This document shows, one piece after another, positions 776 through 42,865 of a stretch of DNA of 42,865 nucleotides; the stretch's first letter is position 1; each line of letters begins with the position of its first letter. The DNA is from a virus, in the IMG/VR virus record IMGVR_UViG_3300048930_001204, positions 1 to 42,865 of that record; one strand, 5' to 3'. Below the pieces are notes generated by a model, which saw nothing but the letters and a program-made list of their open reading frames with translations, was not told the DNA's origin and did not search any database. Both the position numbers and the translations under genes were made by a program.

Positions 776-1225
776 TCACTCGAGGGACTTCATCACAATT
801 CGCGCTTCGTTGTCTTTGGAAAATTCAATATAGACATGGAAGCGAGCACGAATGAGGGCTCCAAAGGCGTTCTGCGAGTCGACCTCTCCCTTGACGTTGA
901 AGGCGCAGTCTTTTGAGGGGTCCCTGTACTCTTTCATTTTCACAAACTTCGCAGAGCCTGGAGACTTCAGGTTCTTACTGACCGACTCCATGGCAAGCTG
1001 CTTCACTTCAAGCTTATGCGAAAATGGGCATCGAACCTCCTCAGCAATTTCTTCGGGAGTCTTGGGCGTAGGCTCGTAAGTAGAACAGTATCCCACGATC
1101 AAAAACAGCAACACCAAGCCAGTCAAACAGCCTCTCGCTGACCTCTTGTTTTCTGCGTCTTTTCTGGCCTTAACGCGGAATTCTTCCTCGGCTTTTATCC
1201 TTGCTTTTTCTTCGTCTGTCAGCAT
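776..1225 (-). CDS. Membrane-anchored protein with LKSPxSAKF...VDxQNxFG domain
   Basis: The 149-residue product has a charged N-terminal helix (1-30), one transmembrane segment (about 33-49) and a soluble C-terminal domain. That domain has the motifs LKSPGSAKF (86-94) and VDSQNAFG (115-122), followed by a strand-rich end. I recognise this motif pair from many small bacterial and phage membrane proteins of unknown role, often with a zinc ribbon in place of this charged N-terminus. It is the only leftward gene in the left third and stands alone, which suggests expression from the prophage or an accessory moron role. The function is not known. Confidence 0.75.
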   Translation of the reverse strand: MLTDEEKARIKAEEEFRVKARKDAENKRSARGCLTGLVLLFLIVGYCSTYEPTPKTPEEIAEEVRCPFSHKLEVKQLAMESVSKNLKSPGSAKFVKMKEYRDPSKDCAFNVKGEVDSQNAFGALIRARFHVYIEFSKDNEARIVMKSLE

Positions 1226-19690: not shown

Positions 19691-19886
19691 GTTTTTGAGC
19701 AATCTCAAATCAGGTGTAAAAAGTACACATGACAGCAAACATCCAGTCCATTGACTGGCTCTCTGTTGTTATTTTCCAGAGCGGCTCGCTCGAGCTCCGC
19801 AGACCGTCAAATCGACGGAAAACAATCGTATTACAAAAAATTCGGCTTTTTTCGGCAAGAAAGAGCTGCTTTTGGGGGACTAAAAC
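19691..19886 (+). promoter_or_regulatory. Leader of the major capsid gene (leader element copy 4)
   Basis: This 196-base gap holds no supported gene. It contains a CCGTC-GACGG hairpin (near 19804-19818), then CGGCAA (19853-19858) and GGGGGACT (19874-19881), the two-part element, six bases before the capsid ATG. I find no convincing -35/-10 pair, so the gap may act mainly on mRNA stability and translation. Confidence 0.5.
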
Positions 19887-21236
19887 ATGCTTAAGAAACT
19901 ACAGGAACGCTTGATCAAAATCGGCGCGTCCATGAAAACGATGAATGACGGGCTCATTCAGGCAGACGGAACCGTCCGTTCTTTCACTGAAGATGAGCAA
20001 AAAGAGTGGGACAAGCTCAAGGCTGAGTCTGATGAAGTGAAAGCTGCAATTGAGCGTCAAAAAGAAATCGAAGCCAATGAACAGCGAGCACGCGAGCTTG
20101 GATCAGTTGCTGAACCAACTCAAATCCAGGTGACTCGTGAGCATAACCACAACGAGAAAGGCGAGTACCGAGGATTTGCAACTCTTGGAGAACAACTTCG
20201 AGCGGTTGTGATGGAAGAAACTCCAACTCTCAGAAAAGACCCTCGTCTTGCTGAACTTCAAAGAAGCCTTCAAGCACGACTTGAGAAGAGAGCTCCTTCT
20301 GGTGCCAACACTCTCGTTGGTTCTGAAGGTGGTTTCATGCTTCAGACTGACTTCTCCCAGGAAATCATGGACAAGTCGATTGAAGGCGCAACGCTTGCAA
20401 GTCGATGCTCTGTTTTTGAGCTTTCTGAAGGTGCAAACGAAGTTGAAATCACGATGCTTGACGAAACCAGTCGCAAGAATGGCTATCGATTCGGCGGTCT
20501 TCGTTCTCATTGGCGAGCTGAAGGAGAGACAGTTGCCTCTTCCTTCCCAAAACTCCGTCAAGAGCGCTGCAGAGCTGAAGGGCTTGATGTCATTGCTTAC
20601 GTCACTGACGAGCAAAGCAGAAGCCTTGCATACTTGAACAAGCTTGCTGAGCTTGCTCCAAAAGAAATTGGCTTCGTCATTGATGACGCCATTTATGCTG
20701 GAGACGGTGCAGGAAAGCCTCTTGGAGTGCTCAACTCACCTGCTCTGATCACTGTATCAGCTGAAGGTGGTCAAGCAGCTGACACTGTGAAGTATGCAAA
20801 CATTTCAAAGATGAAAGCACGCTTGTTTGCTGGCTCTCGTCCCAAGTTCGAAGTGTTCGCTCACCTTGATGTTGAAGCACAGCTTGAGCAGATGGTACTT
20901 GCAGGAGCCTCTTCAGACGTTCCTGTTTGGTTGCCAGCAGGTGGAGCAGCTGATCGTCCTTATGATCGGCTCTTCGGTCGTCCATTGAACTACATCGAGC
21001 AAGCAAAAGCTCTTGGAGATGTCGGAGATATTCTCTTCGCTGACTTCTCTCAGTACGCACTTGTTCGCAAGGGTGGAGTTGAAGCTGCAGAATCGATCCA
21101 CGTCCGATTCCTCTATCACGAGAAGACCTTCCGGTTCTCTGTGGCAGTGAATGGATTCTCGATGTGGGATTCTGCTCTGACAGACTACAACGGCAGCCAA
21201 ACACGGTCACCATTTGTGACTCTCGCGGCTCGATAA
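19887..21236 (+). CDS. Major capsid protein, HK97 fold
   Basis: The 449-residue product starts with a charged coiled-coil delta domain (about 1-130: SFTEDEQKEWDKLKAESDEV), which the upstream protease should remove. The HK97 fold follows: GANTLVGSEGGFMLQTDFSQEIM, the E-loop region GYRFGGLRSHWRAEGE, and the spine and A-domain segments IDDAIYAGDGAGKPLGVLNS and YDRLFGRPLNYIEQA. These match phage_capsid family landmarks. The strong GGGGGACT site fits high expression. Whether it forms HK97-type crosslinks cannot be read from sequence. Confidence 0.93.
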   Translation: MLKKLQERLIKIGASMKTMNDGLIQADGTVRSFTEDEQKEWDKLKAESDEVKAAIERQKEIEANEQRARELGSVAEPTQIQVTREHNHNEKGEYRGFATLGEQLRAVVMEETPTLRKDPRLAELQRSLQARLEKRAPSGANTLVGSEGGFMLQTDFSQEIMDKSIEGATLASRCSVFELSEGANEVEITMLDETSRKNGYRFGGLRSHWRAEGETVASSFPKLRQERCRAEGLDVIAYVTDEQSRSLAYLNKLAELAPKEIGFVIDDAIYAGDGAGKPLGVLNSPALITVSAEGGQAADTVKYANISKMKARLFAGSRPKFEVFAHLDVEAQLEQMVLAGASSDVPVWLPAGGAADRPYDRLFGRPLNYIEQAKALGDVGDILFADFSQYALVRKGGVEAAESIHVRFLYHEKTFRFSVAVNGFSMWDSALTDYNGSQTRSPFVTLAAR

Positions 21237-33924: not shown

Positions 33925-34173
33925 ATGAACGAAGAAACGCTCTCCCTTGTAAAGTTTGCAATCGAGATTTTCAGCTTTCTTGCTGCAGGTCTTTATGCGG
34001 TCAACAAGCTGACAGTGCGGCATGAGTTGCTCGCTGAAAAGCTGGACAGAGTGAGCGACAAGATTGAAACGCTTTGCGAGGCCATCACTGACCTCTCAAA
34101 GACACAACATGATCACAACGTGCGACTTGTGAAGCTTGAAGCGGTATTGGACAAAAACTACAGGGTGAACTAA
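33925..34173 (+). CDS. Putative holin or lysis-associated membrane protein
   Basis: The 82-residue product has one N-terminal transmembrane helix (about 8-27, FAIEIFSFLAAGLYAVNKL) and a charged coiled coil (residues 30-75). The layout resembles XhlA-type or type III-like holin partners. It is one base before the endolysin gene. The endolysin has no signal peptide, so a holin is required, and this is the best candidate. Confidence 0.55.
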   Translation: MNEETLSLVKFAIEIFSFLAAGLYAVNKLTVRHELLAEKLDRVSDKIETLCEAITDLSKTQHDHNVRLVKLEAVLDKNYRVN

Positions 34174-34704
34174 GTGCTGAGCTTATTGTCAAAAGAAGCA
34201 AGAAGGGTTCGCAAGCTGCGAAACGCGATCACTTATTATTCGCATTTTCACAAAATCGATCCAGACCTCATTGCTTCGATCATCTACTGTGAGAGCAGAG
34301 GGGAGCCAAGAGCGTACAGATTTGAGCCTGGATTTTTCGAGCGATACATACAAGGAAAGCCAGTTGGAGACATTCCAGGATATTGGCCTCCTCAGAATCT
34401 TGTCTCACGTGAAACAGAAGCGATGGCGCGATCCACTTCCTGGGGGGTCATGCAGGTCATGGGGCAGGTCGCAAGAGAGCACGGATATCGAGGCGACTAT
34501 CTCCACGAACTGACTGACATCAGGGAGTCGATCAAGTACGGCACTGAAAAGCTTGGAAAGTGTCTCAAGCGGTCAGGGAATTTAAGGGAGGCCATCGCTC
34601 GATATAACGGCGACATACACTCTGAAGCAGCGCAGAAGTACGCTCAAAAAGTCTTGGCAGTTCTAAATACAAAACAATTTCAGGCAATATGGGAAGAAAA
34701 ATGA
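34174..34704 (+). CDS. Endolysin, lytic transglycosylase (SLT) fold
   Basis: The 176-residue product has the SLT motifs: catalytic E40-S41 in IIYCESRGEP, GVMQ (91-94) in SWGVMQVM, and the closing ARYNGD (142-147). These enzymes cut peptidoglycan between MurNAc and GlcNAc with formation of a 1,6-anhydro end. There is no secretion signal or cell-wall domain. The insertion between motifs 1 and 2 (about 45-85) is longer than in minimal SLT domains. A GTG start follows AGGGTG. Confidence 0.85.
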   Translation: MLSLLSKEARRVRKLRNAITYYSHFHKIDPDLIASIIYCESRGEPRAYRFEPGFFERYIQGKPVGDIPGYWPPQNLVSRETEAMARSTSWGVMQVMGQVAREHGYRGDYLHELTDIRESIKYGTEKLGKCLKRSGNLREAIARYNGDIHSEAAQKYAQKVLAVLNTKQFQAIWEEK

Positions 34705-34707
34705 TCC

Positions 34708-34950
34708 TTGCATCTTTCATTTTTTTTTCTTGTTCATGCAACGGGGTGCACGACGCTGGGACTTGCAGTCCCTGCGAATATCCCAACAAGCCTTCCAATC
34801 GCGAGATTCAGGACACAGGGGGCCGTCGTGTCTTTGTCTATAACGACCAAAATAATCGATCACGAGGAGTCAGGAATCTTTCTTGTGATCAGTGGGTATT
34901 TTCAGCCACAGGAGAGGTATGACGTCAGGAGATTGCGCAATCATAATTGA
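34708..34950 (+). CDS. Putative lipoprotein with uncertain frame (possible outer spanin)
   Basis: This frame gives 80 residues with a hydrophobic start and the lipobox-like HATGC, then a beta-like body (GAVVSLSITTKIIDH, then GIFLVISGYF). Its only start is a TTG. A second frame from the well-placed ATG at 34701 (overlapping the endolysin stop) gives 73 Cys-rich residues to 34922. The two frames meet at nine Ts (34720-34728). Losing one T would join the good ATG to the lipobox frame. It may be a sequence error, true slippage, or two nested genes as in Rz/Rz1. Confidence 0.45.
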   Translation: MHLSFFFLVHATGCTTLGLAVPANIPTSLPIARFRTQGAVVSLSITTKIIDHEESGIFLVISGYFQPQERYDVRRLRNHN

Positions 34951-35531: not shown

Positions 35532-35909
35532 ATGGCAAAATACACGCACGACGATGTGATGGACGCTGCGGCGAACTACATCAAAAACAACTGCACAAGA
35601 GTCACTCTCTGTGACGGTCAGCCAACTACGTACACAGAAGCAAATGCAACATTTGCACTTGCAGACGTGACAGTGTCAGGGACTGATTTCACTGTCGCGA
35701 ACGGAACGACCTCAGGAAGAAAGGTGACTTTCGCAGGCAAAACAGGCGTGACGGTTGATGCTAACGGTGACGGAGACCATGTTGCTTACCTTGATGTGGC
35801 CAACTCAAAGCTCTTGCACGTGACGACTGTGTCTTCTCCGCAGACGGTATACGCTGGGAATACATGCAACATCGGCTCACAAGAAATTGAATTTGGAGAT
35901 CCAACATAA
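35532..35909 (+). CDS. Small phage structural protein, 125 residues
   Basis: The pattern THDDVMDAAANYIKNNCTRV then LCDGQPTTYTEANATFALAD is familiar from a widely distributed phage protein encoded near tail fibres. Its role is not defined. The remainder is beta-rich and Thr/Gly-rich. GGAG precedes the ATG. Confidence 0.65.
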   Translation: MAKYTHDDVMDAAANYIKNNCTRVTLCDGQPTTYTEANATFALADVTVSGTDFTVANGTTSGRKVTFAGKTGVTVDANGDGDHVAYLDVANSKLLHVTTVSSPQTVYAGNTCNIGSQEIEFGDPT

Positions 35910-35910
35910 T

Positions 35911-36888
35911 ATGTTCAAGAAACTTGTTGCGGCATTATGTCTGATTCTCGTCTTTGCGTCTCAGGGCTTGGGGGAGTATCGTCAGGCTCAAGTAGGCACA
36001 AAGATATATGAAACCAAGGAAGCTTTTCCGATTGGTTTTTATGACATTTCGCATTACCCAAGCATGGACGCGAGGCGACTGGATGCCATGCGTGAGATGA
36101 AGCGCATGGGTGCTGACTACATGGCAGCAACAATTGACTCAGGAGACAAGGCCACGATTGATCTCGCAGAAGCATTGAATCTTGGGTTGGCTCTCGAGTA
36201 CAACTCTGATGCAGCTGGAGTTCTTGAAGCCTTCAAGAACTCTCCTGTCATCTTTGCTCATATACCTGGGGACGATGTTGACTCAAGGTTCGCAAGCGCT
36301 GCTCAGTATAAGGTCGAAGATGCAAAATACAGAGCCTTGCGCGGTGACTTGCTTACGATTGCCAGCGTTGGCTATGCATCAAACTTCAGCAAGTTCGCTG
36401 GAGTTTCTGACAAGACTGGCCAACAATGCTATCCAATTGACGGCGAGCCTCTTGCAGCTGTTCCATACTGCTACAACAGGGCAAAGGTGGCAACGACAGC
36501 CAAGAATGTTCCACTCCTTGCTCATGTTCAGACCATGAAGTGGTCAGGTCGACGATACCCAACTCCTCAAGAAATTGACGTGATGGCTTGGGGTGCAGTG
36601 ATACTTGGCGCAAATGAGATCTTGTTTTACGCATATTTTGATTATAACAAATCAAATCAGCGCACGAACACAGACCTTTCGACGCAGCCAGCTATCAGAG
36701 AGAAGCTCAAGCAATTCATTGAAAAGCTGAGGACGCTTCAGCATTTCTTCATATTTGGAACTCGAAGCGCTGTGACGAGCTCGAGTGGTATGGTTGGAAC
36801 GTGGGATTATCCTGCCTTGAAAAGGAGCTTGGATATTCGAGTGACTTATTCCACAAAAATGGTGTCTATAACAGAGAAAGCTTTGTAA
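35911..36888 (+). CDS. Secreted TIM-barrel-like protein, possible glycoside hydrolase
   Basis: The 325-residue product has a clear signal peptide (MFKKLVAALCLILVFASQGLG). It then shows alternating strands and helices like a TIM barrel: FPIGFYDISHYPSMDARRLD, GADYMAATID, LGLALEYNSD, VIFAHIPGDDVDSR, LLTIASVG, VPLLAHVQTM, GANEILFYAY. The DD in GDDVD is where clan-A glycosidases often have the DEP or NEP acid. No certain catalytic pair is visible. A signal peptide on a gene in the fibre region is unusual. It may be a virion-independent depolymerase or a surface-modifying enzyme. Confidence 0.5.
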   Translation: MFKKLVAALCLILVFASQGLGEYRQAQVGTKIYETKEAFPIGFYDISHYPSMDARRLDAMREMKRMGADYMAATIDSGDKATIDLAEALNLGLALEYNSDAAGVLEAFKNSPVIFAHIPGDDVDSRFASAAQYKVEDAKYRALRGDLLTIASVGYASNFSKFAGVSDKTGQQCYPIDGEPLAAVPYCYNRAKVATTAKNVPLLAHVQTMKWSGRRYPTPQEIDVMAWGAVILGANEILFYAYFDYNKSNQRTNTDLSTQPAIREKLKQFIEKLRTLQHFFIFGTRSAVTSSSGMVGTWDYPALKRSLDIRVTYSTKMVSITEKAL

Positions 36889-36891
36889 ACA

Positions 36892-38814
36892 ATGGCAACA
36901 AGAGAGAAGACAATCGAGTATGCATGGCCAATGTACACTTCAGGCATTGCAGACGCTACGCTGACCTCCATCGGCTCGATCACTCTTTACTGTCCCGAGG
37001 CGGCTGATTCCGGTGTCACCTTCACTTCTGTCACTGTGGACGTTGGCTTTCAAGACATAGTGACGGCCACAGGTGGCACAATAAATGAGCTAAGATGCGC
37101 GCTGACTCTCTCTGGTGCATCAGCTTCAACAGTCACGGAGACTGACGATCTACTGAACACAGGCGAGAATCTTGGCGGCATTGTTGGACCGTTTGATTTC
37201 ACTTCTTATTTCAATTCAAACTTTGGCTCCGGCTCTTCAAAGTCCTGTCAATGTGATTTATATTTTGACCAGTCCACGGGTACGACGCTCGGAATGCGAA
37301 ACTGCACTGCGATTGTGCGCATGACTTACACGTATGACGATACAGACACAACGCAGATCAAAACTGTCAGACTCCCTCTTGAGTCCCTTGTTGGCACTCT
37401 TTCCACAACGGCAGGAAGCGAGATTGGAACAAATCAAATCCCTGTGCTTGACACAGTGTTACCAGAGGACAGTGTTACGATTCGCGATTACTTTTTTGTG
37501 ATTGAAGGCAATACCGGAGCGACAAACACAACAGACTTCACAGTCAGCTATCGAATTGACTCAGAAGCAAATGCAAGTTTTGGCGTACAGGAGGCGGCTC
37601 TTCAGTCTTTGGTTTTCATGCGATGGGTGATTGATCGCAAAAGTAGTATACCGACGACCAACTCGACTCACTCATTCAGGCTCTGGAGCTCCACAGCGAG
37701 ACTCAATCATGTTTCAATCACGCTCCATGTCACCTATGAATTTGACGCGAGCACAAGCACAAAAGTCCTCAACTCAATTTTAATTCCATATAATTGTGTT
37801 GACCCTATTGGCAGAACAACAGCGTCAGAAGAAACTCGGATAAGCAAGCAGATTTCGATTCAAGAGCCTGGAACTATCACGATGAGGCAATCGGCGATTC
37901 GACATTACTTTATGGCACAGGACACAGTGTCAGGGTTCGCGATTGCTTGCGGAAGTCAAAGCGCGAGAACATACACGCATGTGGGAGGGCAGGTTTCAGG
38001 CGGCTATTGCATGCAGCAACGCATTGACTCAGGAGGAGCTCAAGGCGCGGCTCTTACTCTTGCAAGGGGCTTCAACACACTTACAGTTGACATACTAGTG
38101 ACAGACACCACAGACGAAGTCACGCTGAATTCCGGCGTGATAATTCTAAACTATGAAAGTGACGTGCATGGTGATGGGGTAGGAGCGCACGCTCACACGG
38201 TTTTCAAATACATGGAAGGCTTCAACGCAGGTCTTGTTGACTACAAACAGATCGCAGACTTCGCGTTTTCAATACCTGAGTCTAGCTACTATTTGATTGA
38301 CGCTGGGCTTGAGTTTAATTACTGGATTTCAAATGCGCTCAATGGCTTTTCTGTTCTCATGCAGGTACAAAGCGGAGAGGGAATTGGTTCAGGGTATTAT
38401 CAAGTCCACGCAAGCACATACATAGGGGACGCAGAAAGGTGCTGTCATGTGGTTTATATTTCTGCAATTGAATTTCTCAATCGCTATCCCAGCGATCCGA
38501 GGGACCTATGTGACATTGAAACTGCAAGAGACTTCCTTCTTTATTCTCCCACACTAGCAGGTTACGGAGCTTTATTTTTTGCAACATACCACTCAATCTC
38601 CTATGACATCGCAGGAGATATTTCAGACAGCGACGGCGGCTCTGTAACGATTACAGCGCACAGAACGGACACAGGAGAAAAAGTTGGGTCAACTTCACGC
38701 ACAGGAGATGGCGCATATTCAATCACGTGGTACGACAACACAGTGGATGTTTTTGCGACAGCGTACGAAGACGCAACACACAAAGGGCGCAGCGATAATG
38801 ACGTGGCGACATAA
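36892..38814 (+). CDS. Large beta-rich virion or fibre protein
   Basis: The 640-residue product has three similar beta-rich stretches, each with a TIRDYFFVIEG- or TMRQSAIRHYF-like turn. The C-terminal module (about 570-640) is carboxypeptidase-regulatory-like (AGDISDSDGGSVTITAHR, then TGDGAYSITWYD). Similar modules cap phage surface proteins. The cysteine content is fairly high. It starts three bases after the previous stop. Confidence 0.55.
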   Translation: MATREKTIEYAWPMYTSGIADATLTSIGSITLYCPEAADSGVTFTSVTVDVGFQDIVTATGGTINELRCALTLSGASASTVTETDDLLNTGENLGGIVGPFDFTSYFNSNFGSGSSKSCQCDLYFDQSTGTTLGMRNCTAIVRMTYTYDDTDTTQIKTVRLPLESLVGTLSTTAGSEIGTNQIPVLDTVLPEDSVTIRDYFFVIEGNTGATNTTDFTVSYRIDSEANASFGVQEAALQSLVFMRWVIDRKSSIPTTNSTHSFRLWSSTARLNHVSITLHVTYEFDASTSTKVLNSILIPYNCVDPIGRTTASEETRISKQISIQEPGTITMRQSAIRHYFMAQDTVSGFAIACGSQSARTYTHVGGQVSGGYCMQQRIDSGGAQGAALTLARGFNTLTVDILVTDTTDEVTLNSGVIILNYESDVHGDGVGAHAHTVFKYMEGFNAGLVDYKQIADFAFSIPESSYYLIDAGLEFNYWISNALNGFSVLMQVQSGEGIGSGYYQVHASTYIGDAERCCHVVYISAIEFLNRYPSDPRDLCDIETARDFLLYSPTLAGYGALFFATYHSISYDIAGDISDSDGGSVTITAHRTDTGEKVGSTSRTGDGAYSITWYDNTVDVFATAYEDATHKGRSDNDVAT

Positions 38815-38825
38815 CAGGAGGGGAA

Positions 38826-40220
38826 GTGGCGTTTGACATTTCGCTCTCTTCGACAGCCACGGGGTTCGATATCTCGCTCAGTCAGAGCACGGTTGTTGAT
38901 TTTATCCTAAACAACGCATTTCACGCGCAGACCTCAAGCTCAAGCGCTTTTTCACAGACTCAGTCAGTTGACGCAAACGATGCAAGCCACGCACAAACGA
39001 GCAGCTCACCAGTAGTCACGCAAGTTCAAAGCGTAGATGCAAACGACGCTTTCCATACTCAAACAGCCACACAATCAACAATCTCACAGGCGCATGCTAT
39101 TGACACAGCAGACGCATTTCACGCGCAAACAGCTAGTCAGAGCAGTCTCTCACAGGTTCAAATCCTTGACCCAAGCGACGCGACTCATGCGCAAAGCTCG
39201 AGCTCTCCTTCTATATCTCAGAGCCAGGTGCTCTCATCGAGCAATGCTTTCCATGCACAGACAAGCTCCTCGCCAGTTGTCACGGTTGCTGTTGATATTG
39301 AGCTCAATGACAGCTTTCATGCGCAGACGGCGAGCTCTCCCTCTATTGGCCAGAATCAGGTCCTGTCTGTCAATAACGCGAGCCACTCGCAAACGTCCAC
39401 GTCTCCAAGCATATCGCAAGGGCAACAGATCAACGTCGAGGATGCGTTTCATCCTCAAACTTCATCTGCAGCCACCATCTCACAGATCCAGTCTGTTGAA
39501 CCACAAGACGCAATCCATGAACAGATCTCGAGCTCTCCTTCCATAACGCAGACTCATCCAGTAGACCTAGACGATGCCTTTCATCCACAGACTGCCTCAG
39601 AAATAGACATAAACAGCAATGTAACTTTCTCGCCTGAGAATGCGTTCCACGCACAAACCTCGAGCTCTCCTGCAATCTCACAGACTCAATCAGTTGACTT
39701 GTCTGATGCTACACATGCACAGACATCAAGCTCTGTCTCCATAACGCAGGCGCAAGTCATTGACATCAGCGACGCCATCCATGGCCAGACATCCACGAGT
39801 CCAGTCATTTCACAAGTTCAAGCAGTCGAGGCTGAAAACGCATTTCATCCTCAAACGTCTTCAGAGCCATCAATCAGCACTGAGATCACTTTCAATCTTG
39901 ACAATGCCTTTCATGGCCAGACCTCAAGCTCCTGCGCAACTTCTCAAGTGCACATCATCGACGGTGAGGACTCTTTCCATGATCAGATCTCAAGTTCTCC
40001 GAGTCTGAGCCAGCTGCAAATCATTCTTCTTGATGAGTCAATTCACTCACAAACTGCAAGCTCTGTGATTCTTGAGCAGCTGCAGTTGATTTTTGTTGAC
40101 GACGCATTTCACCAACAAACAGCGTCACAGATAAGTGTTCAGATCATCGAAGACCTCGGATTCTTGATGATAGGAGAGACCTTTCTGCAGATCAGCAAGG
40201 GGCAAGGCTTGGAGCTTTAA
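38826..40220 (+). CDS. Repeat protein with nineteen HxQT-type 22-residue units
   Basis: The 464-residue product has a short N-terminal segment (1-28), nineteen tandem units of 22 residues (the last shorter) and a 20-residue tail. The unit reads roughly [ND]-A-[FST]-H-A-Q-T-[SA]-S-S-P-x-I-S-Q-x-Q-x-[VI]-D-x. The His and the Gln two residues later are kept in all nineteen units. Similar DATHAQT-type repeats occur in other phage surface proteins. The regular period suggests a beta-solenoid fibre with His and Gln stacked along one face. A GTG start has the strong site AGGAGGGGA. Confidence 0.75.
   Translation: MAFDISLSSTATGFDISLSQSTVVDFILNNAFHAQTSSSSAFSQTQSVDANDASHAQTSSSPVVTQVQSVDANDAFHTQTATQSTISQAHAIDTADAFHAQTASQSSLSQVQILDPSDATHAQSSSSPSISQSQVLSSSNAFHAQTSSSPVVTVAVDIELNDSFHAQTASSPSIGQNQVLSVNNASHSQTSTSPSISQGQQINVEDAFHPQTSSAATISQIQSVEPQDAIHEQISSSPSITQTHPVDLDDAFHPQTASEIDINSNVTFSPENAFHAQTSSSPAISQTQSVDLSDATHAQTSSSVSITQAQVIDISDAIHGQTSTSPVISQVQAVEAENAFHPQTSSEPSISTEITFNLDNAFHGQTSSSCATSQVHIIDGEDSFHDQISSSPSLSQLQIILLDESIHSQTASSVILEQLQLIFVDDAFHQQTASQISVQIIEDLGFLMIGETFLQISKGQGLEL
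38910..40157 (+). repeat. Tandem 66-base coding repeat, 19 units
   Basis: The units are 66 bases each. They have diverged strongly in DNA while keeping the protein motif, so selection acts on the protein. The number of units could vary between relatives by recombination. Confidence 0.8.
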
Positions 40221-40246: not shown

Positions 40247-40264
40247 TTGAGTACAGTCCCTGGC

Positions 40265-40474
40265 ATGGGGATTTTGAAACAGAAAAGAGAGAAGACAGGG
40301 CTGTCAATTCAGGAGCTCGCTGACAGGGTAGGGGTGAAAAAGTCCACGGTTGCGTCATACGAGAAAGAGTTGCCACTGAATAAGCAGTTCGTGGCATATC
40401 TCCTGACCTTGAGCCAAGCGCTCGACCTATCTCCAAAGGCTTTCAAAGAGCTGTGCGAGCGCTTGGTGAAGTGA
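40265..40474 (+). CDS. XRE/CI-like DNA-binding protein, 69 residues
   Basis: The product is almost entirely one helix-turn-helix domain: LKQKREKTGLSIQELADRVG, then VKKSTVASYEK as recognition helix. A fully single-domain regulator of this size is Cro-like or antitoxin-like. ATG at 40265 lacks a Shine-Dalgarno; a TTG at 40247 is the alternative. A leaderless transcript, as for lambda cI, is possible. It is convergent with the leftward cassette (stop codons adjoin at 40474/40475). Confidence 0.7.
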   Translation: MGILKQKREKTGLSIQELADRVGVKKSTVASYEKELPLNKQFVAYLLTLSQALDLSPKAFKELCERLVK

Positions 40475-40711
40475 TCATCTTTCCCACTGGTCTGCTGGGA
40501 CTGTAGGTCCTTGGCTAATGGTCGGGAAAGTCTCGACGATGGGCTTGCCATCTTTGCCGACGTCTATCTTGACGAGCTCGACTCCTCCACTCTTGCCTCC
40601 TCCCGATCCTTTTCTCGGTATGACATCGCACACCATGAGCAGCGAGATTGCAGCCACTCCGAAAAAAACACCAGAAAACCATGCTCCTATCTTGTTGGGA
40701 TTGCCGTCCAT
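40475..40711 (-). CDS. Membrane protein of the leftward cassette, 78 residues
   Basis: One transmembrane segment (about residues 10-29, GAWFSGVFFGVAAISLLMVC) is followed by a Gly/Lys-rich periplasm-like linker (PRKGSGGGKSGG) and a short beta segment. AGGAG lies nine bases before its ATG. It is the last gene of the cassette. Together with the upstream lipoprotein it could form an inner-outer membrane pair, as in spanins or exclusion systems. Confidence 0.6.
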   Translation of the reverse strand: MDGNPNKIGAWFSGVFFGVAAISLLMVCDVIPRKGSGGGKSGGVELVKIDVGKDGKPIVETFPTISQGPTVPADQWER

Positions 40712-40714
40712 TTT

Positions 40715-40783
40715 TTATACTCCTGTGAATTTTGATATAATTAAAAGCATCACGAAACCAAAGAGGATTGCTTGCGCTGTCAT
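40715..40783 (-). CDS. 22-residue transmembrane microprotein
   Basis: The whole peptide, MTAQAILFGFVMLLIISKFTGV, is one membrane helix. AAGGAGG, an ideal Shine-Dalgarno, is four bases before its ATG. The ATG overlaps the lipoprotein stop (ATGA). Its stop is three bases before the start of the 78-residue membrane protein. Such strong signals on a very short frame argue for true expression. Confidence 0.55.
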   Translation of the reverse strand: MTAQAILFGFVMLLIISKFTGV

Positions 40784-41049
40784 TCTGCCTCCTTATACTT
40801 GAGCTGATAGATCATCACTTTCGACTCTGTCTGCTTGTCAAGCGATTGCCAGGCACTTCCTCTGACATTTGGACTGTCTTTGGCAATCTGTGCCTGAGAT
40901 GCTTGCATCTGCGACCACGCGAGAATACCTTGCGCGTCTCCTTCTATCTTGATCCTGCCTGCGTCTCCTGAAGCCAGAATCTCCGTTGTGGAGCAGTTGC
41001 AAAGACATGAGGCACTTAGTACGAGCATTGCGGTCAATTTCCATTTCAT
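40780..41049 (-). CDS. Lipoprotein of the leftward cassette, 89 residues
   Basis: The signal sequence MKWKLTAMLVLSASCLCNC carries a lipobox (LSASC or LCNC). The mature part is polar and helical (ILAWSQMQASQAQIAKDSPN). ATG at 41049 is chosen over an upstream in-frame ATG at 41079 because AAAGGAAAGG lies just before it. First gene of the leftward cassette. Expression against the direction of all virion genes suggests use in the lysogen. Confidence 0.65.
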   Translation of the reverse strand: MKWKLTAMLVLSASCLCNCSTTEILASGDAGRIKIEGDAQGILAWSQMQASQAQIAKDSPNVRGSAWQSLDKQTESKVMIYQLKYKEAE

Positions 41050-41320
41050 AACCTTTCCTTTTATAACCTGAGCGTTCATTCGCTCCGGTTGAATAGATGC
41101 CTTTCGTGCGTATATCGGTACGGCTTAAGATAGAAAAAAAGCTGAAATCTCTGTTTTTCTGATAATGATCAAGGGTTCCCTGTACTTATATCGGTACGAT
41201 AAAAAAGCGCGGTCAATAACCTCGTTTGATGTCGTAAGTTTTTGAGCTTCCCTCTTTCAGCTGTACAATCGCCATGCGTGGACGGCAATCGGCGCAACTA
41301 CAAAAAATCGGGGGACTTTT
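41050..41320. promoter_or_regulatory. Divergent regulatory gap with direct repeats
   Basis: This 271-base gap separates the leftward lipoprotein from the rightward gene at 41321. TATATCGGTACG occurs at 41112-41123 and 41187-41198, 75 bases apart and in the same orientation. The first copy is preceded by CGTGCG; the 11-mer CGTGCGTATAT (41106-41116) recurs at 377-387 in the early promoter. GAGCG-CGCTC (about 41070-41085) can form a hairpin in the leftward mRNA. CGGCAAT (41283-41289) and GGGGGACT (41310-41317) form leader element copy 5. Repressor operators or integrase arm sites are possible readings. Confidence 0.55.
41242..41269 (+). promoter_or_regulatory. Sigma70-type promoter for the 41321 gene
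   Basis: TTGAGC (41242-41247) and TACAAT (41264-41269) are 16 bases apart. Transcription would start near 41276 and directly enter the CGGCAAT ... GGGGGACT leader. Confidence 0.55.
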
Positions 41321-41623
41321 ATGTTCAACTCACTTAAAACATGGATTGTGAAGCTGTTTGCTGGGACGTGGCTCAAGAAATTTCTGCGAGACTCACTCTT
41401 GGTGATTTCGACATATCTCATGGCTTCAGACGCATCGATATGCGCAGAGACAGAAATCTGCAAAGACCTCGCGCAGTGGCTTGGTGAGGCGTCTCCAATT
41501 ATCGTCGAAAGAGCCATCGAGATCATCATGTTCTTGATCTCCTTGCTCATGAAACTGTCTGCAGGGAAAGCAGAGAGCGTTGGTCGTAAAGTTTTGGAAG
41601 AGCAAAAAGAAGCGAAAAAATAG
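41321..41623 (+). CDS. Small membrane-associated protein, 100 residues
   Basis: The N-terminal part is amphipathic and basic (TWIVKLFAGTWLKKFLRDS), the middle is polar with two cysteines, and residues about 62-80 are hydrophobic (ERAIEIIMFLISLLMKL), before a charged tail. It could be a holin-like or exclusion protein. Its own promoter and strong leader, and its place beside the integration block, favour an early or lysogenic role. Confidence 0.55.
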   Translation: MFNSLKTWIVKLFAGTWLKKFLRDSLLVISTYLMASDASICAETEICKDLAQWLGEASPIIVERAIEIIMFLISLLMKLSAGKAESVGRKVLEEQKEAKK

Positions 41624-41686: not shown

Positions 41687-42073
41687 ATGAGCAGCAATCT
41701 GGTTCGACTCAACGAAATAATCTCAAATAAGCAGCATTCTGTTGAGCTGCTCAGGCAGGAGTACAATCAAGGCTTGGCAGAGCTTGAAGCACTTGAAGCT
41801 CTTGCGGAGATTCGTCGTGCTAACTTCGGTGCGGTCGACATCACTGCTCTTCTTGAATTCGTAAAAGAAAGAGATCCAAAGATTGCCGACGTGATGTTGC
41901 GAGCGCAGTCTCTCAAGATAGTCAAGGGTGAGGTTCGTGCGTTTGTACGTCAGCGCGACTTTGCAGACTGGAAGATTTTCCGTCATTCGATTGAAAAGTA
42001 TTGTTCTGAGTTCGCTCAGCGCACGCTTTCTCTCGCTCTTAAGACTATCGATGAGGATGAGCTAAATGGATGA
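41687..42073 (+). CDS. Coiled-coil protein coupled to the integrase
   Basis: The 128-residue product has a long N-terminal coiled coil (residues 5-50, RLNEIISNKQHSVELLRQEY) and a helical remainder with VKERDPKIADVML. The stop overlaps the integrase start by eight bases (ATGGATGA), so the two are made together. It is not a typical excisionase. It may be an integrase accessory factor, which is inference from coupling. Confidence 0.6.
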   Translation: MSSNLVRLNEIISNKQHSVELLRQEYNQGLAELEALEALAEIRRANFGAVDITALLEFVKERDPKIADVMLRAQSLKIVKGEVRAFVRQRDFADWKIFRHSIEKYCSEFAQRTLSLALKTIDEDELNG

Positions 42074-42855
42074 CCCAGGAAGACTGTGGGAGCTCATAGC
42101 AATATATTTGAAACAGAGGGCTCTGAGGTCTCAAAAAGTATATCTCAAGACGCTTGAATACTTCTGCGAGGTTGTTGGGATCTCAATGGGGACAGACGCA
42201 GGGGCGCAGCGGTTCCTTGCTGTCTCAGCTTTTGACGTCGAGAAGTTCTTGCATGCAATCAAAAATCGAGACGGCGTGCCTCCCAGGGAAGAGATAGGAT
42301 CAAAGAAGCAGATAGGAAGCTGGAAAGCAAGCAAGAGCACAATCTCTCTGAAAATCTGCGTGATGAAAGCGATATACAACGAGTTGGTTGCAGACGGCTA
42401 TCTGCAGAGAAGTCCGTTTCGACACGTAAGGACGCCAGAGCGAGACGAAGAGCGTCGCCAGATAACATACGCAATTCCCATTGAGAAGGTGACGGACCTC
42501 TTCGATGCTTGCGAGCACGACACGCGCTCAGGGTTCTTGGACAGAGCGATTCTGGCTCTCCTGTTTGGAGGAGGTTTAAGGGTAGGGGAGTTGGCTCGCA
42601 TAAGGGTCTGCGACCTCAATCGCTCCGCTGGTGGCGTTGTATTCGCTCGGCTCAGAGAAACGAAGGGCAAGGCAGACGTCGATCAATCCCTTGCTGGCTG
42701 GGCTGGCAAAATACTCATGGACTGGAAGACATACAGAGTCGAGCAGGAGGGCTGCTATCCTACTGATCCACTTCTAGCCACAGTATACAGGTCAGTGAAA
42801 TCAAGCATTGACACGAGGACAATCACCAGGCGCTTCAAGAGGCTTTGCGAGACTG
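42066..42855 (+). CDS. int: Tyrosine recombinase (integrase), N-terminal part
   Basis: This is the 5' part of the gene completed at 3-332. Residues 1-120 are the core-binding SAM-like domain, with STISLKICVMKAIYNELVAD. The catalytic domain starts near 135, with box I R172 in FGGGLRVGELARI and the lysine of the beta hairpin at about 200-202 (ETKGKAD). The open frame runs to the contig end; bases from 42856 are adapter. Joined length is 331 residues, normal for the family. Confidence 0.92.
42730..42855. repeat. Terminal overlap, right copy
   Basis: This copy is identical to 1-126. It should be removed when the genome is circularised. Confidence 0.9.
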
Positions 42856-42865
42856 AGATCGGAAG
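42856..42865. other. Sequencing adapter remnant
   Basis: AGATCGGAAG equals the first ten bases of the Illumina TruSeq adapter. It replaces the expected continuation (CAGGCTTGGA at 127-136), so it is not phage DNA. Confidence 0.92.

Follow-up and report, generated by a model that had tools for sequence, protein, structure and literature searches.

The known superinfection exclusion systems are mostly single proteins. Small phage lipoproteins known to cause exclusion include Llp of T5, whose gene lies beside the receptor-binding gene (PMC9586334), the BF23-type Llp (PMC4728585), Lpp021 and Lpp010 of the mEp coliphages, whose genes lie inside the structural cluster (PMC11893012), and Ltp of S. 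thermophilus phages, whose gene adjoins int (PMC3952083). The locus that we analysed is a cassette of three genes. Like T5 Llp and the receptor-blocking Cor of the T1 family, its gene 1 encodes a small phage lipoprotein (mature part ~60-75 aa) near tail receptor-binding genes, but sequence similarity between those proteins and gene 1 was not found, and the cassette is a dedicated operon, read leftward, with two further membrane proteins of small size. Ltp of S. thermophilus TP-J34, described as a possible moron, also comes from a lipoprotein gene near the integrase of a temperate siphovirus; however, it is 142 aa long and binds the tape measure protein through repeat domains, which gene 1 lacks. 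The cited exclusion lipoproteins all act without a 22-aa partner, unlike the cassette. We detected no homology to any exclusion lipoprotein in Pfam, PHROGs, NCBIfam, PADLOC or PDB, or by tblastn against INPHARED.

The window, which is the whole stretch of DNA analysed (42,865 nucleotides), is the entire IMG/VR record IMGVR_UViG_3300048930_001204. Positions 1-126 are repeated directly at 42730-42855, and the start of an Illumina adapter, AGATCGGAAG, follows this second copy and runs to the end of the window at 42865. From the 126-nt end repeat and the adapter we conclude that the record represents a whole phage genome, circular (or permuted, terminally redundant) and 42,729 bp long; leftover adapter at the record end masks the circularity. 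Because the genome is complete, its gene inventory is full and its integrase is intact: the first part at 42066-42855 (+ strand) continues over the junction of the circle at 127-332, which gives 331 aa. The record is the genome of a temperate siphovirus, with terminase, portal, protease, major capsid, tape measure and J-like tip genes, recombination and replication genes, and HTH regulators. The initial annotation had treated the locus as part of a prophage. A temperate phage with a whole integrase is indeed present, but as a circular phage genome with no chromosome around it. The closest phage, L002 (terminase 87% identical), is represented by a 5-kb fragment without the cassette region. Besides L002, the terminase search returned distant relatives alone (<=40%) in GTDB and IMG/VR, and a host search of ~1,190 genomes from three phyla gave no relative closer than 40%.

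All three leftward reading frames described in the initial annotation are present. Gene 1 (40780-41049, - strand) encodes a lipoprotein precursor of 89 aa, with lysines at K2 and K4, a hydrophobic core and a PROSITE-type lipobox, LSAS-C15. Cleavage is predicted before C15, leaving a mature part of 75 aa in which an acidic residue at +2 is absent; a later site, CLC-N-C19, misfits the usual rule. Its start codon is preceded by a Shine-Dalgarno sequence (AAAAGGAAAGG-ATG), and an alternative start is possible 10 codons upstream, at 41079. A single-sequence AlphaFold model of gene 1 has a strand-helix-strand-strand order at a pLDDT of 61; with this low-confidence model, Foldseek gave no matches at E<=0.001, and the best viral ones were unnamed phage proteins at E 0.04.

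Gene 2 (40715-40783, - strand) encodes a 22-aa peptide, MTAQAILFGFVMLLIISKFTGV, consisting of one hydrophobic helix. Its frame overlaps the stop of the lipoprotein gene as had been noted, the TGA at 40782-40780 and the ATG at 40783-40781 forming ATGA. The strong Shine-Dalgarno sequence reported for this middle gene is a 7/7 match, AAGGAGG, with four bases between it and the start codon (AAGGAGG-CAGA-ATG). In the whole genome, on either strand, gene 2 is the only frame of 15-40 codons whose ATG is preceded by AAGGAGG. Three nucleotides separate its stop from the next ATG, at 40711, where gene 3 begins (40475-40711, - strand; Shine-Dalgarno ACAGGAGT-ATG). Gene 3 encodes a 78-aa membrane protein with one helix. 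In its model (single sequence, no alignment, pLDDT 66), an N-terminal membrane helix at residues 5-29 is followed by a Gly-rich linker and a short beta hairpin, with no coiled coil and no second helix.

We measured coding potential as a codon log-odds score, for which wrong frames served as the control (mean -0.25, sd 0.15). Gene 3 scores 0.20, and gene 2, whose codon usage resembles that of the phage's own genes, scores 0.24, a value reached by 0.8% of 22-codon control windows. Gene 1 scores 0.03, reached by 1.7% of controls, and other wrong-strand ORFs reach about 0.05. By this measure genes 2 and 3 are well supported and gene 1 weakly.

With the tail genes on one side and the integrase on the other, the cassette runs leftward, against all virion genes, as the initial annotation had noted. 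The stop codon of gene 3 stands back to back with that of a convergent gene for an XRE-type HTH protein (40247-40474, + strand; PF01381, 5.3e-9). On the other side, the divergent neighbour (41321-41623, + strand) encodes a 100-aa protein with hydrophobic stretches that is holin-like by eye only; it had no family match in profile searches and no IMG/VR relative in a peptide-pattern scan. The cassette is not the sole leftward candidate: a fourth gene, at 776-1225 (- strand) on the far side of the integrase, would encode a 149-aa one-helix membrane protein that matches uncharacterised phage families (phrog_13160, 1.7e-12).

The gene next to the cassette, at 38826-40220, encodes a 464-aa protein made of repeats of ~27 residues with cores of the form (A/S)(F/T/S)H(A/P)QT(A/S)S. 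The 640-aa tail-region protein at 36892-38814 has tblastn relatives in only two phage records, from a 735-kb uncultured huge phage, to which it is 29% identical over its full length; peptide-pattern scans of IMG/VR found no relatives of this protein or of the integrase. Within the run of virion genes, positions 35887-36888 encode a protein of 333 aa that has an apparent signal peptide and matches no family.

The divergent intergenic region between the cassette and gene 41321 spans 271 nt (41050-41320; 42.8% GC) and contains two operator-like direct repeats of 17 nt, GTGCGTATATCGGTACG at 41106-41122 and GTACTTATATCGGTACG at 41182-41198, the second of which is an imperfect palindrome, GTAC-N8-GTAC. 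The copies share the 12-mer TATATCGGTACG, which occurs nowhere else in the genome with two mismatches allowed. Copy 2 overlaps the -10 side of a candidate leftward promoter (TTGACC at 41216-41211, TATAAG at 41190-41185), which is non-consensus because its spacing is 20; a scan for consensus promoters listed no leftward promoter. The repeats look like operators of a local regulator, for which the adjacent XRE protein would be the natural candidate. The 17-nt repeat is missing from the early region and is therefore unlikely to serve as an operator of the main prophage repressor. The repeats could equally hold the cassette off in the lysogen.

The right end of this region carries one copy of a leader motif, which consists of CGGCAA, mostly placed in the loop of a hairpin, then a spacer of 15-22 nt and GGGGGACT. 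Its copies at 413-448, 1481-1511, 19853-19881 and 41283-41317 precede ORF 450, the HTH gene at 1566, the major capsid gene at 19887 and gene 41321, respectively. The motif is present at four of the five GGGGGACT sites, and random rotations reach even two in just 0.13% of trials. Before the capsid gene of L002 (4744-4772) it is identical at 29 of 29 positions. It has no Rfam match, and no Rfam family reached the gathering threshold in the window; a match in the region to a piece of a human lncRNA fell far under the gathering score and was discarded. In gene 3, the start codon is followed at 40699-40710 (- strand) by the same GGA-CGGCAA-UCC hairpin that the leader motif has; it agrees with the copy at 1477 over 14 nt, and the GGGGGACT part is absent. 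We set aside a long-range RNA pairing between the gene 3 start and the gene 41321 leader, as we estimate that ~0.1 such 12-nt matches would be expected in this stretch by chance. The copy near the HTH gene 1566 lies in a region 5' of that gene (1445-1549) that has a terminator-like hairpin and strongly structured RNA; the folding energy of positions 1430-1570 is -54 kcal/mol (z -5.1).

Searches of IMG/VR, INPHARED, Pfam, PHROGs, NCBIfam, PADLOC, PDB and the fetched prophages gave no relative for any of the three cassette proteins. Peptide-pattern scans of IMG/VR with the lipoprotein and the 78-aa protein were likewise negative, as were searches for the lipoprotein alone in PLSDB and across the whole records of 12 host genomes. 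In a whole-record search of 38 viral and phage records, the 78-aa protein had no match, and the lone match of the lipoprotein, a 31-residue stretch of a 55-aa frame at E 0.006, is chance-like, as are the weak profile matches from fetched loci. We also scanned 2.4 Mb of fetched phage and prophage DNA, a small sample, with a script for the order 'lipoprotein, membrane ORF of <=45 aa, membrane ORF', and it returned this locus only. On this evidence the cassette is a group of orphan genes, for which the proposed role is plausible and unproven.

A place next to the integrase, opposed to the late genes, is usual for accessory genes. The location of the cassette between tail genes and integrase, its own orientation and promoter region, and the envelope targeting of all its products together suggest an accessory operon of the lysogen. 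The ATGA overlap, the tight spacing and the good ribosome-binding sites support a single operon, and the gene-like codon usage of genes 2 and 3, the 17-nt repeat unique to the promoter region, the adjacent XRE gene and the separate lysis genes also count in favour of the accessory reading. Counting against it are the lack of homology to any exclusion protein, the non-consensus leftward promoter, and the absence of a 22-aa partner from the cited exclusion lipoproteins. The cassette probably alters or protects the host cell envelope, although its job there is a guess. Exclusion is the leading guess because it is the best documented accessory role of small phage lipoproteins (PMC9586334, PMC4728585, PMC11893012, PMC3952083). 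Gene 1 shares with Llp, Cor and Ltp a lipoprotein signal with a lipobox, here at C15 with N-terminal K2 and K4. We give a probability of roughly 40% to an autonomous accessory ('moron') operon whose envelope lipoprotein most likely serves superinfection exclusion. The initial interpretation, superinfection exclusion or another host-protecting system, is supported in part, namely for an envelope cassette that is transcribed separately in a temperate phage, next to the integrase and opposed to the late genes; its expression in the lysogen, surface-exposed lipoprotein, exclusion role and three-protein partnership are putative.

Under the exclusion reading, the cassette would be transcribed leftward from its own regulated promoter, presumably in the lysogen, where accessory genes are typically expressed (PMC7067206), and perhaps under the control of the adjacent XRE protein. 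The gene 1 product would be cleaved by signal peptidase II, and the resulting small lipoprotein would stay in the envelope, in the outer membrane if the host is diderm, with the products of genes 2 and 3 located in the inner membrane. The lipoprotein would be the effector, with the two small membrane proteins perhaps cooperating as helpers or stabilisers. The changed host envelope would then cause related phages to fail at adsorption or injection.

One alternative is that the cassette is a spanin-like lysis pair, in which the lipoprotein is the o-spanin and the 78-aa protein the i-spanin, and the two bridge the envelope at lysis. In minimal outline, spanins pair an outer-membrane-type lipoprotein with a small membrane protein of one helix, as in the two-component Rz/Rz1 systems, and in a distant relative, L003 (J protein 26% identical), a spanin-like overlapping pair also lies on the other strand from J. 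Both spanin genes that are separated and spanins lacking a strong coiled coil are on record (PMC6139136). However, the cassette differs from Rz/Rz1 in gene order, in strand and in its extra 22-aa gene, which has no role in spanins. The mature part of gene 1, with one proline, lacks the proline-rich character that o-spanins often have. The model of gene 3 (single sequence, pLDDT 66) shows a Gly-rich linker and hairpin instead of the helical, usually coiled-coil periplasmic domain of an N-in/C-out i-spanin. The cassette also has its own promoter region on the strand opposite to the late genes, 5.6 kb from the SLT lysin module, where co-expression with the lysis genes would be expected of spanins. 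That rightward module (33925-34922, + strand) comprises an 82-aa membrane and coiled-coil protein that is weakly XhlA-like, an SLT transglycosylase at 34174-34704 (+ strand; PF01464, 2.2e-11) and a Cys-rich lipoprotein candidate at 34689-34922 (+ strand), whose coding status is uncertain given a poor codon score. In other words, the module already has a membrane/coiled-coil protein and a lipoprotein candidate, and a complete genome leaves no room for a further lysis gene beyond the window. A spanin role for the cassette is therefore unneeded and its likelihood is lowered; we consider it unlikely.

Lysogenic conversion of the envelope might instead serve stress or serum resistance, adhesion or the like rather than exclusion, an explanation that we consider as unlikely as the spanin one. 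The same logic of location applies, an accessory gene by the late genes of a temperate phage, and the model is lambda Bor, an accessory lipoprotein whose gene lies beside late genes and is active in the prophage (PMC7067206). Bor comes from one gene, whereas the cassette has three and no Pfam match: neither Lambda_Bor (PF06291) nor any other family matched at E<=1. Moreover, the sequence predicts no phenotype for such a conversion.

A more doubtful proposal concerns the 22-aa frame, which might be no gene at all, its Shine-Dalgarno sequence serving translational coupling or arising by chance, so that the cassette would have two genes. Twenty-two codons make a short frame, but no other short ORF in the 42.7 kb, with both strands considered, is led by AAGGAGG, its product is fully hydrophobic, its codon score is gene-like, and it has the ATGA and 3-nt junctions at its two sides. 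It is very improbable that the peptide instead acts as a hydrophobic toxin, type I toxin-like or an abortive-infection effector, that the flanking proteins restrain or trigger: in size and hydrophobicity it resembles peptides of the Ibs/TisB type, but it has a strong Shine-Dalgarno sequence and operon coupling, Rfam gave no family at the gathering threshold in the window that could supply the antisense RNA by which type I toxins are controlled, and a toxin translated this tightly would require a strong antidote.

Accessory envelope genes as such are already known; the three-part composition of this cassette turned up at no other place in the 2.4 Mb of phage DNA fetched, a small sample. Annotation easily overlooks small phage lipoproteins and tiny membrane peptides. 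The exclusion reading has a bolder form, which we regard as quite unlikely, in which the cassette encodes a three-part exclusion complex and the 22-residue peptide is an essential subunit joining the outer-membrane lipoprotein to the inner-membrane partner. If true, such a complex would be unlike the known single-protein exclusion systems, and a 22-residue peptide working in exclusion would be a new type of subunit for superinfection exclusion.
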